A stretch of 64,000 nucleotides of DNA, from contig ML241294.1 in assembly GCA_005239175.1 (NCBI GenBank), forward strand, positions 1-64,000, in the 5' to 3' direction. This DNA comes from a halophilic archaeon SHRA6 (GTDB lineage: Archaea > Halobacteriota > Halobacteria > Halobacteriales > Haloferacaceae). The notes under the pieces are model-generated. The model was not told the origin of the DNA. It made no database searches and worked only from the letters and a program-made list of their open reading frames with translations. A program made the position numbers and the translations under genes. Below, piece after piece: positions 1,481 to 5,841 of this stretch (the first letter of the stretch is position 1; each line of letters starts with the position of its first letter).

Positions 1481-2452
1481 TCATGAGTTATCTTTGTGTC
1501 GATCGTTCGGCCGGAGATGCTCACAGTCGCCCGCGTGGACGGTCTCGATGCCGTCGCCAGTATCCACCTGTAATGCCCCGGGCATGACGATGTCTTCGGC
1601 GATCCCAGTGATGGTGTCGGTGTGGGTCTCGACGCGGACTGGCATGCCGAGCGTGACCGATCGATCGCGCCACGCGTCCAACACTGAGTCGAGATCAGTA
1701 ATCTGTTGATCGAATGCCGCAAGCAGCGCCTGAACGATTTCGGCTCGATCGACCGGTCCGTCGATCCCCGATCGAATACTCGTCGCGTTGTCGGGAAGCT
1801 CAGCCGCGTCTATGTCGGCGTTCAGTCCAATCCCGACAACGAGCCAGGAGATGCGATCGGCCTCACCTTCCATTTCTGTGAGGATGCCACAGAGCTTTCG
1901 GCCGCCGTAGCCTGCGTCGGGATTCTCGGGAACGATCACGTCGTTCGGCCACTTGATTGCGGCGTCAACGCCGAGTGAGCGTGCGACGTCGACAGTCGCG
2001 ACTGCGGCCGCGAGCGTAAACAGCGGCGCGTGTGCCGGGGGTCGATCGGGCCGGAGCAGGATCGACAGCGAGACCGCGCCGTCAGGCGACTTCCAGGATC
2101 GATCGAGTCGGCCTCGACTGTTAGTCTGTCGACCGGCAACCACAGCGATGTTCTCGGCCCCTTCCGCGGCGAGTTCGCGGGCGCGTTCGTTCGTACTGGA
2201 GAGTTCGTCGTAATAGCGCACCTGGTACGGCGGGGTACGGCCGTATTCGATCGCCGCTGCGGAGCCGTATTCTGGGGTGTCGGTCACGACGTACCCGTCG
2301 GCTGTGCTGTCGATCGAAAACCCCTGTTGGCGGAGCGCTTCGACGTGTTTCCAGACCGCAGCACGGGAAATATCGGCCGCCGCTGCGAGATCGGGGCCCG
2401 ATGCAGGACCGGCTTCGAGCGCCCGGAGGATCGATCGGCGCGTCCGGTTCAT
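1481..2452 (-). CDS. birA: Biotin-[acetyl-CoA carboxylase] ligase with HTH domain
   Basis: This 323-residue protein adenylates biotin and transfers it to carboxylase biotin-carrier domains. Residues 4-45 form a winged-helix domain ([11 protein letters not shown] through [11 protein letters not shown]). The ligase core has the biotinyl-AMP loop [12 protein letters not shown] near 110-120, KWPNDVIV and a GIGLNAD segment. The start at 2452 was preferred over an upstream in-frame ATG because it begins directly at the HTH; the extra 37 residues would be low-complexity and overlap the divergent promoter region. An N-terminal HTH implies the protein may also act as a repressor of biotin genes, as in Escherichia coli. 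It is divergent from cofD with a 122-bp gap. Confidence 0.93.
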
Positions 2453-2574
2453 ACCGGGTCTCTGAGGGGCGGAGACAAATACCGTGTGGGTCTCGGCTGG
2501 ATGCAACCGCAAACCTCGGAAGTACGGGCAGCTGCGAGGGTAGGATACAAATCCGGGGGCCACAAAAGGCAGCT

Positions 2575-3573
2575 ATGGTTACGTTTCTCGCTGGCGGGAC
2601 GGGCACCCCGAAGCTCCTGTCGGGTGCGGAGTCCGTCTTCGAACCGGCGGAGATCACTGTTGTCGCCAACACCGGCGACGACGTTGAACTCGGTGGACTC
2701 CTTGTCTGTCCGGACATCGACACGGTGCTGTTCGATCGCGGCGGCGTATTGGATCGCGACACATGGTGGGGAATCGACGGAGATACCCACGAAACGAACG
2801 AGGAGCTGTTCGCAATTGCCGAGGCGGCGGGGCTCGCTGGCGGGCCGCGATATCTCGACGCAGCCGCACAGACCGCGGGTCGCGACCTCGCCCGATGGCG
2901 ACGCTTTTCGGGGATCGCAGAGTTCATGACGATCGGCGACCGCGATCGAGCGGTCCACATCACGCGAACCAGCCTCCTCGATGAGGGCCACACCCTCACG
3001 GAAGCGACCCAGATCGTAGCGGACGCGTTCGGGCTGACGATCGATCTCGTGCCGATGAGCGACGATCCAGTTGCGACGATGATCCACACGCCAGACGGCG
3101 CGATCCACTTTCAGGAGTACTGGGTTGCAAACCGGGCTGAACCGGACGTCCTCGATGTCACGTACAAAGGTGCCGATGACGCAGCGATGACACAGTCAGT
3201 GCGCGATGCGCTCGCAGATCCGGTGGTGATCGGCCCCTCGAACCCAGTGACGAGTATCGGCCCGATGCTCGCGATCCCTGGCATGCAGGCGGCCCTCGCA
3301 TCGACGCCGGTGGTTGTCGTTTCGCCGTTTGTCGAAGACGAGGTATTCTCAGGGCCGGCTGCGGAGCTACTGGCCGGAATCGGCGCAGAGCCCTCGACGG
3401 CCGGCGTTGCCGACCAGTATCCATTCGCAGACGCGTTTGTACTCGATCGCGAGGACCGAACGACGCTCGATCGACCAATCGTGCGAACTGATACGCAGAT
3501 TGAAACCGACGCCGACAGCGAGCGGGTCGCAACGGCTGTCGAGACGGCACTTACCGAGGTGCACGCACAATGA
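2575..3573 (+). CDS. cofD: 2-phospho-L-lactate transferase (coenzyme F420 synthesis)
   Basis: CofD joins the activated 2-phospholactate-type donor to the deazaflavin Fo, giving F420-0. The 332-residue length is usual for the family. The N-terminus has the nucleotide-binding [11 protein letters not shown] (residues 7-17) followed by NTGDD (32-36), both diagnostic. Later segments such as [15 protein letters not shown] and [13 protein letters not shown] are also typical. The start at 2575 fits the family, which begins within a few residues of the GGTG motif. It is the first gene of a four-gene block whose junctions overlap by four bases. Confidence 0.95.
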
Positions 3574-4337
3574 TCGATCGCGACTTCGGAGCCTCGTTTG
3601 CTCCCCGGCTCGCTGCGGCGAGTCTCAGTGGCGAGTCCGACGCGGCATGGGCTCGATCGCTCGCGGATCATGTCGGGTGTGCGTTTATTGGCGGCGTGTC
3701 GATCGACGAGCGAACGCAGGCGGCATCTGCGGCACTTGTCGATCGCGAGCGCCGTGAGTTCCTCACCGAGAATCCGATCGAGTTCATCGACGACCAACTC
3801 AGGTCGCTCTCAGAGACGGATACGGCGATCGGGGTGAACGTCCGAACGACGCGGGTCGATCGACTGCGCGAGGCCGCAGCTGTCTGTCGATCCCACGGTG
3901 CGATCCTTGAGGTGAACGCGCACTGTCGACAGCCGGAATTGACCGCGATCGGCTGCGGCGAGTCACTGCTTGCAGACACCGATCGCCTCGAGCGATACGT
4001 CGCTGCGGCCGCAGAGATTGGCGCAACTGTTGGGGTGAAAGCCCGTGCGGAGGTTTCGGGAGTCGATCTCGGGGATGTCGCAGCGGCAGTCGAATCGGCT
4101 GGTGGGTCGATCCTCCACGTCGATGCGATGGATTCACCGGAAACGATCGCCGCGCTGGCCAACAAAACCGAGCTGTTCGTGATTGCGAACAACGGCGTTC
4201 GCGATCGCGAGACTGCCTACGAGTACCTCCGTCTCGGAGCGGATGCAGTCAGCGTTGGGCGGCCAACCCGCCAGCCGGAACGGCTCGATTCGATCCGGAC
4301 AGCGGTCGACGCATGGTTCGCGGAGGTGACCGCATGA
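3570..4337 (+). CDS. Archaeal Dus-like TIM-barrel protein (putative flavin enzyme)
   Basis: The 255-residue protein resembles the archaeal tRNA-dihydrouridine-synthase-like barrel family (TIGR00736-like). Visible marks are VNAHCRQPE and IGCGESLL in the middle, VGVKARAE, and a C-terminal phosphate-binding half [26 protein letters not shown] typical of FMN barrels. It is shorter than true Dus enzymes and lacks a recognisable tRNA-binding C-terminal domain, so tRNA modification is doubtful. Its ATG overlaps the cofD stop by four bases, and its own stop overlaps the next start in the same way. Translational coupling suggests it shares a task with its neighbours; the substrate is unknown. Confidence 0.75.
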
Positions 4338-5212
4338 GCGCCGGCGAGACGTTGGGTCAGGACCGATCGCCCGCCGAGAACGCCCAGTTGGCGCTGTTGC
4401 TTGAGGTGGCCGGGACGCCAAAACCAGGCAACGTCGATCGCCATCGCGATCTCGAATCGCTACGGTTCGAGCACTTCCTCGCGGGGGCGATCGGTTCAGG
4501 CGCCGGCCTGAGGGCCGCTCAGCAGGGGGCGTCAGTGGGTGACGCGTTTGAAACGGCGGTCGCCGGGATGAGTAATCAAGGCGGTGGGAATACCCAGTTC
4601 GGCTGTCTGTTGCTCCTCGTGCCGCTCGTCGCGACTGCCACAAGCGGGCCGCTTACGCCAGCGCGCGCGGAAGATACCGTGGAATCGACGACCGTCGAGG
4701 ATGCGGTCGCGTTCTACCGGAGCTTCGAACACGTCGATGTCGCTGTTCGCGATCCGCCAACAGATGCCGATGCTCTCGATGTGCGACGTGGTACCGGGGC
4801 GGCTGAGGCGATCCGCGATCGTGAAATGACACTGGAGGATATTATGAGACTCAGCGCGGAACCATCACCAAACCGTCCGGCCGACGAAAACGCCCGCGAG
4901 TGGACGACGGGGTTCGAACGATCGTTCCGCGCGGCCGATGAACTGCTCGCAGACGAGGGTCCGGTCGGCGATCGGATTGCACGGACGTTCCTTCGGCTCT
5001 TGGCCGAAGAGCTGGATACACTGGTCGCGACAAACCACGGAACAGAGACAGCGAGAGAGGTCTGCGATCGGGCGGCGGCGATCGGTCAGGATCTCGACGC
5101 TGCAGCGCAACTCGCGGAGACGTTTGTCGACGACGGAATCAACCCGGGGACGACAGCGGACCTTACGGCTGCGGCGGCGTTCATCGCGCTGGAACGGGGG
5201 CTAACAGTATGA
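4334..5212 (+). CDS. Triphosphoribosyl-dephospho-CoA synthase family (CitG/MdcB-like)
   Basis: The 292-residue all-helical protein carries the CitG family signatures GTPKPGNVDRHRDLE (residues 27-41) and NQGGGNTQFGCLLLL (81-95). Bacterial CitG makes the 2'-triphosphoribosyl-dephospho-CoA precursor of the citrate lyase prosthetic group. No citrate or malonate lyase acyl-carrier gene is present here, so the archaeal protein probably acts on another substrate. The start at 4334 was chosen because its ATGA overlaps the upstream stop; an in-frame ATG 21 bases earlier is possible but less likely. It also overlaps the downstream DUF447 gene by four bases. Confidence 0.8.
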   Translation: MSAGETLGQDRSPAENAQLALLLEVAGTPKPGNVDRHRDLESLRFEHFLAGAIGSGAGLRAAQQGASVGDAFETAVAGMSNQGGGNTQFGCLLLLVPLVATATSGPLTPARAEDTVESTTVEDAVAFYRSFEHVDVAVRDPPTDADALDVRRGTGAAEAIRDREMTLEDIMRLSAEPSPNRPADENAREWTTGFERSFRAADELLADEGPVGDRIARTFLRLLAEELDTLVATNHGTETAREVCDRAAAIGQDLDAAAQLAETFVDDGINPGTTADLTAAAAFIALERGLTV

Positions 5213-5841
5213 CCGAAACAGAGGATCCAGCGGGGATGCATCTCGAGGGCTGGCCGGTCGCGCTCCGCGGCGTCACAGAGTCGATCGTCGCGACTCTCGG
5301 CCCGAACGAGTTGTGGAACATGGCTGCACTGGGACTGCATGCCCCCGAATCGCGCGAGGATCCCGTTACGGCGACGACCTGGGGCAACACCCGGACGAAG
5401 CGAAACTTCGAGCGGCGTGACGGCGGGGTGGTACAGTTCACCGCCGATCCACGAGCGTTCGTCGACGCTGCAGCGACGATCCGCGAAGAACTAGAACCGG
5501 TTCTGCCAAGCGCAGCCGCAAGCGTCGAGGTCACCGCCGCAGCAATCGACCACGGAGTCGATGGCGGGACCGAGTGGACGACGTGGACGATTGAACCAAT
5601 CGAGGGGACCGCAACCGTCTACGAGCGGGTCGTCCCCACGATCAACCGTGGGTTTGGAGCCGTGATCGACGCAACCGTCGCCGCATCGCGGCTCAACGTC
5701 GACGCCTTCGAAACCCAGACGCTCCTCGACCGGCTTCGATACTTCGAGACCACAGTCGAGAAATGCGGCGGCCCTGCCGAACGTGAAGCTTTCGAGCGGC
5801 TCAGCGAGGTGTCTGAGTGGCGATCGTACGACGAGGGGTAG
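5209..5841 (+). CDS. DUF447 family protein (putative flavin-binding split barrel)
   Basis: The 210-residue protein matches the DUF447 family in overall pattern: an N-terminal GVTESIVATLGPNELWNMA and a TTWGNTRTKRNF segment, then a helical C-terminal half (INRGFGAVIDATVAASRLN). The family has a flavin-reductase-like split-barrel fold and no firmly established function to my knowledge. It ends the four-gene overlapping block with cofD, the Dus-like barrel and the CitG-like gene. From memory, homologues of DUF447 and the CitG-like protein also occur in tetrahydromethanopterin-related gene sets of methylotrophic bacteria, which suggests cofactor metabolism; this is inference. Confidence 0.75.
   Translation: MTETEDPAGMHLEGWPVALRGVTESIVATLGPNELWNMAALGLHAPESREDPVTATTWGNTRTKRNFERRDGGVVQFTADPRAFVDAAATIREELEPVLPSAAASVEVTAAAIDHGVDGGTEWTTWTIEPIEGTATVYERVVPTINRGFGAVIDATVAASRLNVDAFETQTLLDRLRYFETTVEKCGGPAEREAFERLSEVSEWRSYDEG

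Follow-up and report, generated by a model that had tools for sequence, protein, structure and literature searches.

We analyzed four genes at positions 2,575 to 5,841 of a 64,000-nucleotide stretch of DNA (hereafter the window) from the halophilic archaeon SHRA6, whose haloarchaeal genome is 3.36 Mb in size. The genes encode CofD, a Dus-like flavin protein, a CitG-like protein and a protein of the DUF447 family, and the best overall explanation, which we consider probable, is that their operon provides for both substrates of Mer (F420-dependent methylene-tetrahydropterin reductase), namely coenzyme F420 and a pterin of the methanopterin type, and that Mer in turn would make the methyl groups for methionine. 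This explanation draws on gene order, co-occurrence, joint loss, shared neighborhoods and conserved catalytic residues, from which we infer the existence of a haloarchaeal methanopterin-type pterin and each of the chemical steps. The coordinates, strand and overlaps of the four genes were all as originally predicted, with an ATGA overlap at each of the three junctions, and since birA lies divergently upstream and a gene for a CBS-domain regulator lies convergently downstream of the DUF447 gene, the operon appears to consist of just these four genes. The features of the locus (FMN, flavin mononucleotide) are the following:

1481-2461, minus strand: birA, divergent, upstream of cofD
2462..2574, plus strand: intergenic region of 113 bp between the divergent birA and cofD, putative site of the operon promoter
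2575-3573, plus strand: cofD, transferase for 2-phospho-L-lactate (or phosphoenolpyruvate) in coenzyme F420 synthesis (TIGR01819, PDB 3c3d)
3570-4337, plus strand: Dus-like FMN barrel, an MJ0144 / methanogenesis-marker-9 barrel without the marker-9 domain (TIGR00736, PF01207)
4334-5212, plus strand: CitG-like protein, putative (phospho/triphospho)ribosyl transferase for the side chain of a methanopterin-type pterin (PF01874)
5209-5841, plus strand: DUF447 protein, proposed FMN-dependent reductase of the pterin ribofuranosyl-arylamine side chain (DUF447_N, DUF447_C)

The strongest new statement from our comparisons is that the CitG-like and DUF447 proteins, as judged from gene distributions, appear to form one haloarchaeal set with MptG and Mer. 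MptG is beta-ribofuranosylaminobenzene phosphate (RFAP) synthase, which catalyzes the first committed step of methanopterin synthesis. The comparison covered 117 haloarchaeal genomes of the same order as the window genome, 97 of which were near-complete. The MptG family was found in 93 of the 97, the window genome among them; DUF447 and MptG were both present in 93 and both absent in three. CitG, DUF447 and true Mer were missing from exactly three of the near-complete genomes (G008, G060 and G119), and the MptG homologue was also missing there. Two of these, G008 and G060, belong to one genus and G119 to another, whose other sampled members retain the genes, indicating that the losses in G119 were separate. 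The same four proteins were absent from a third lineage, f39, represented by two genomes that are ~77% complete. As cofD, Dus and Mch were retained in G008, G060 and G119, the losses do not reflect general decay. Fisher tests gave p values near 1e-5 to 1e-7, but with relatives counted as independent; a fair tally is two to three joint losses. Among 14 reference genomes used as controls, MptG and DUF447 matched in the same four and CitG in those four plus E. coli; in Sulfolobus MptG, CitG and DUF447 were present and CofD was absent. A few isolated gaps are probably assembly effects: MptG and Mch were missing from G253 (a 170-contig assembly), Mer was missing from G200 (81% complete) and only a partial Mer was found in G223. 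The genomes without MptG, CitG, DUF447 and Mer (G008, G060, G119 and f39) had one MetE-like gene or none, versus the usual pair; there was none in G119, for which a methionine requirement is predicted.

Mch, by comparison, was distributed independently of the trio of CitG, DUF447 and MptG, as it was kept where the trio was lost, whereas f31, f35 and G206 had retained MptG or DUF447 but had no Mch. Given this mismatch in both directions, we rejected, as a general rule, the notion that the substrate of Mch is the product of the trio. In a published reconstruction (PMC7599335) mer and mch were kept from methanogens to haloarchaea and only mer was kept in Hikarchaeia, with a role that was called unclear. 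The gene set of f35, in which mer and the trio are present and mch is absent, fits the Hikarchaeia pattern.

Shared neighborhoods away from the operon connect the same functions. A plasmid of Halobellus limi carries the genes mer-DUF447-mptG-metE-metE beside npdG, with mer and DUF447 overlapping; this five-gene order is identical in G203, and mer-DUF447-mptG lies at a contig end in G213. (Named plasmids yielded just two haloarchaeal records for DUF447 and a single record for CitG, and one of these gave the mer operon.) In G018 cofE is followed directly by mer, with mptG ~1.5 kb upstream of cofE. These mer-DUF447-mptG-metE and cofE-mer arrangements unite F420 synthesis with MptG and DUF447 and with the enzymes Mer and methionine synthase. 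The window genome encodes a MetE pair as well as the other two partners:

G000:C2:756,715-757,680: MptG homologue (TIGR00144, 168 bits, cut-off 113)
L189:9271-10296 = G000:C2:1,061,271-1,062,296: Mer (NF002619, 444 bits, cut-off 276)

The MptG homologue of the window genome has kept GSGTQ, the phosphoribosyl pyrophosphate (PRPP) loop, and the equivalent of Arg26 of the Methanothermobacter thermautotrophicus enzyme is kept in haloarchaeal MptG. The Mer of the window genome scored 282 bits against TIGR03555, below the 349 of that model, and has kept the equivalents of jMer Glu6, Asp96 and Phe233. At the position of jMer Gln178 it has a Glu (GGEGP versus GAQGP), whereas the other listed true Mer proteins retain Gln.

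The block in the window is more than a chance neighborhood. The CitG-like and DUF447 genes adjoined in all 106 haloarchaeal genomes having both, cofD and the Dus-like gene were neighbors in 99 of 103, and, of 98 genomes that hold the complete set of four, 86 had the block intact and in the same order. All four gene families are present in the genetically tractable Haloferax volcanii. The commonest break point was between the Dus-like and CitG-like genes, which delimits two sub-blocks, cofD-Dus and CitG-DUF447, and the ATGA overlap of the latter was retained even where the pair had been relocated away from cofD. A literature search on DUF447 combined with CitG found nothing. In Natrinema thermotolerans (L046:7168-8969) a hypothetical gene, an iron transporter gene and a cupin gene lie between Dus and CitG, and both sub-blocks are unbroken. 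In the small incomplete genomes of f31 no Dus, CitG or Mch was detected and cofD is followed directly by DUF447, with a 4-base overlap in L177:8996-10575 and a 2-base gap in L176:8763-10369.

Related gene sets outside the haloarchaea also place the CitG-like and DUF447 genes beside methanopterin genes. In methanogen-like archaea (for which "Methanosarcina-like" and "Archaeoglobi-like" are labels that were inferred from sequence) Dus-CitG-DUF447 were consecutive in eight Methanosarcina-like families and, with a divergent barrel, in two Archaeoglobi-like loci of f23. In locus L150 the three genes are followed by the gene for the dihydromethanopterin reductase DmrX (TIGR02700, 328 bits, cut-off 251), and locus L152 has the order cofD-Dus-CitG-DUF447-DmrX (DmrX at 286 bits against the same model). 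The haloarchaeal gene order is thus the same as that of the Methanosarcina-type cluster, and in the f8 genome cofD even stands in front; it differs in that two Methanosarcina-type features, DmrX and the C-terminal cysteine-rich "methanogenesis marker 9" domain of the Dus copies, are missing in haloarchaea, where the barrel stands without that domain. The marker 9 domain is co-encoded with CitG-DUF447 (L150:9304-10446; L162:7926-8879), in L150 together with DmrX, and may therefore mark methanopterin or F420 synthesis and not methanogenesis. The Dus-like barrels of the two f23 loci lack the catalytic cysteine.

The original prediction had mentioned a link of CitG-like and DUF447 genes to the one-carbon gene sets of methylotrophic bacteria, and this link was borne out in 80 Fae loci of bacteria, nearly all methylotrophs, which were fetched with a Fae query sequence that was used for this purpose only (best matches 99-100% identical). 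A CitG-like gene ended <600 bp upstream of fae, the position of orf7, in 80 of the 80 loci, mptG was present in 72 of the 73 with enough flanking sequence, and DUF447 was present in 29 of 57. The assignments for the Methyloligella locus were confirmed by Pfam and NCBIfam, and an Azospirillum plasmid is annotated with the order mptG-mtdB-mch-CitG, the last as "triphosphoribosyl-dephospho-CoA synthase". The methylotroph methanopterin gene sets (mch-orf5-orf7-fae-orf17, orf19-22 and mptG) resemble the haloarchaeal block in having a CitG-like gene, here directly upstream of fae, with mptG and DUF447 close by. They are unlike it in that no cofD or Dus-like neighbor was seen in these loci, and in that their carrier serves formaldehyde oxidation with Fae, MtdB and Fhc, genes for which were not seen beside the haloarchaeal block.

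The individual proteins of the operon could be assigned with different degrees of certainty. CofD is a firm equivalog assignment, as originally predicted, with a TIGR01819 score of 368 bits (cut-off 257) and a match to PDB 3c3d at E=3e-69. The CitG-like protein matches PF01874 strongly (200 bits), and its KPGN and NPG..AD blocks are invariant relative to the methanogen and methylotroph homologues. The DUF447 protein scored 60 bits for DUF447_N and 65 bits for DUF447_C, both over cut-off; structures matched for it were PDB 2iml/2nr4/2ptf, and its profile weakly reached the FMN-binding protein 3in6 (E=1e-3). Methanopterin differs from folate in that its ribofuranosyl-derived arylamine is reduced to a ribitol form and bears an alpha-ribosyl group, and CitG transfers a ribosyl-triphosphate from ATP in an alpha linkage. 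By analogy with this chemistry the alpha-ribosyl step would most naturally fall to the CitG-like protein, which is probably a ribosyltransferase of the pterin side chain. DUF447, a presumed FMN protein that accompanies MptG in almost every genome checked, even where CitG was not detected, is a candidate for the earlier reductive opening of the ribofuranosyl ring and is probably a reductase of the side chain. The expectation that all three less familiar proteins of the operon make or modify a cofactor, perhaps a pterin, is well supported for the CitG-like and DUF447 proteins, given their co-occurrence and joint loss with MptG and Mer and their DmrX, Fae and MptG neighbors elsewhere, and does not extend in the same way to the Dus-like protein, which stays with cofD. 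The methanofuran-like or new flavin product that had also been considered was not indicated by the evidence; a methanofuran role was discarded as no co-occurrence pointed there.

The pathway that we propose for the haloarchaea has two branches that would meet at Mer. In the pterin branch, the MptG homologue, encoded elsewhere in the genome, would condense para-aminobenzoate with PRPP to ribofuranosylaminobenzene phosphate, DUF447, presumably with FMN, would open the ribofuranosyl ring by reduction and so yield the ribitol form, and the CitG-like protein would add the alpha-ribosyl group, so that the three proteins together would provide the arylamine portion, with its ribosyl group, of a one-carbon carrier of the methanopterin type. 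In the other branch CofD would lead to coenzyme F420, and the Dus-like protein would act as an FMN ene-reductase, most likely on the F420 enolpyruvyl unit, either as free phosphoenolpyruvate, as the guanylyl ester of the latter or within dehydro-F420-0. Mer would then use F420H2 to convert the methylene-pterin into methyl-pterin, from which the two-gene MetE would pass the methyl group to homocysteine, giving methionine, while folate and Mch would form a separate, parallel carrier system. The most far-reaching form of this proposal is tentative and, taken as a whole, rather doubtful: that almost all haloarchaea make, in addition to folate, a hitherto unrecognized methanopterin-type carrier dedicated to the F420-dependent methionine methyl group, that the ribosyltransferase and the side-chain reductase missing from methanopterin synthesis in archaea and methylotrophs alike are the CitG-like and DUF447 proteins, and that the missing archaeal enzyme for reduction of the F420 lactyl unit is the Dus-like protein.

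Several observations weigh against the proposed pathway. The joint losses come from three lineages only; in f31 and f37 MptG and DUF447 were present and CitG was not detected; the MptG of the window genome scored 187 bits against the RFAP synthase equivalog NF040726, for which 328 are needed; and the haloarchaeal MptG proteins have an Asn at the position of Asp19 of the Methanothermobacter thermautotrophicus enzyme, a substitution with which a methanogen RFAP synthase retained some activity (PMC6787355). DmrX was over cut-off in none of the 117 haloarchaeal genomes, and the final reduction would need another enzyme if the carrier exists. In addition, the Haloferax annotators (PMC8305020) hold that tetrahydrofolate is the carrier in haloarchaea, which in their view lack enzymes specific to methanopterin, and they regard an RFAP synthase activity of HVO_2628, the MptG homologue of Haloferax volcanii, as improbable. 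It could accordingly be argued that the MptG homologue and the CitG-like and DUF447 proteins, inherited from methanogens, now modify folate or some other metabolite and that Mer uses methylene-tetrahydrofolate. The lack of DmrX would agree with such an arrangement, as would the persistence of Mch where the trio was lost, which suggests that Mch probably uses folate. We nevertheless find it unlikely, for Mer and the three genes were lost jointly in three lineages, with Mch staying in the complete genomes, and a Mer working with folate only would not require DUF447 or MptG, with which it shares operons together with metE. That the operon is a relic, whose inherited order holds genes that are now functionally unconnected, appears improbable: inheritance does account for part of the order, which is common to the methanogen-like relatives, but the joint loss with the unlinked mer, the presence of DUF447 with mer, mptG and metE elsewhere, and the retention of conserved residues speak for a current function. 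Most improbable of all is that the CitG-like protein makes the triphosphoribosyl-dephospho-CoA precursor of a prosthetic group as in citrate or malonate lyase, for despite its membership of PF01874 it reached only 21 and 20 bits against the NCBIfam equivalogs CitG and MdcB (cut-offs 272 and 282), it always adjoins DUF447, it was lost together with Mer, and in methylotrophs its homologues have fae, mch and mptG as neighbors. A citrate-lyase role was rejected on these scores and because the block contains no lyase gene.

The Dus-like protein is the least certain part of the proposed pathway. It scored 28 bits for PF01207, and its best family was that of MJ0144 (TIGR00736, 128.7 bits, under the cut-off of 218.7). 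With a length of 255 amino acids and a Dus profile match that stops at position 226 of 311, it lacks the tRNA-binding domain, as had been noticed originally. Like the tRNA-dihydrouridine synthases, it has an FMN-type triosephosphate isomerase (TIM) barrel and the catalytic Cys/Lys/His pattern (Cys119, Lys157 and His183, invariant in 20 sequences); unlike them, it has no C-terminal tRNA-binding domain, matches weakly and is conserved beside cofactor genes. The AlphaFold2 model (pLDDT 93) had DusB, dihydroorotate dehydrogenase B and DusC as its nearest folds, and this fold together with the conserved residues predicts that the protein is probably an FMN ene-reductase of a small molecule. Since it stays beside cofD in all three near-complete genomes that have lost MptG, CitG, DUF447 and Mer, it may be part of the F420 branch and is perhaps the reductase still missing from the archaeal F420 pathway. 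Such an enzyme, an archaeal dehydro-F420-0 reductase termed "CofX", was predicted by Bashiri and co-workers (PMC6450877), who looked only beside cofE. The gap that the C-terminal dehydro-F420-0 reductase of FbiB fills in mycobacteria (PMC6450877) would be closed by an FMN reductase encoded next to F420 genes, although FbiB has a nitroreductase fold and the Dus-like protein a barrel of the Dus/dihydroorotate dehydrogenase type. According to later work the archaeal CofC/CofD pairs that were tested preferred 2-phospholactate (PMC8764529), and on that view the Dus-like protein could make 2-phospholactate from phosphoenolpyruvate. A role in the pterin branch, in which it would reduce the ribofuranosyl side chain or the dihydropterin ring, is nearly as likely as the F420 role, though by itself possible rather than probable, and competes only with this part of the pathway. 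In its favor, the Dus-like gene adjoins CitG-DUF447 in the Methanosarcina-like and f23 loci, with DmrX next in line in L150 and L152; in methanogen-like genomes it does so also where no cofD is nearby, which weakens the F420 assignment; it remains with CitG while cofD is elsewhere in four haloarchaeal genomes; and the absence of DmrX leaves one reduction step in haloarchaea to be filled. Its retention beside cofD after the loss of the pterin genes points the other way, as does the lack of a match in Sulfolobus, which has the trio and no CofD, and in the 80 methylotroph Fae loci.

If the proposed supply of both Mer substrates by the operon is correct, the view that haloarchaea switched completely from methanopterin to folate would be overturned, and the retention of Mer in haloarchaea, a point left open by the ancestral reconstruction (PMC7599335), would be explained. 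It would also provide candidate genes for two steps of methanopterin synthesis and for the archaeal F420 reductase.

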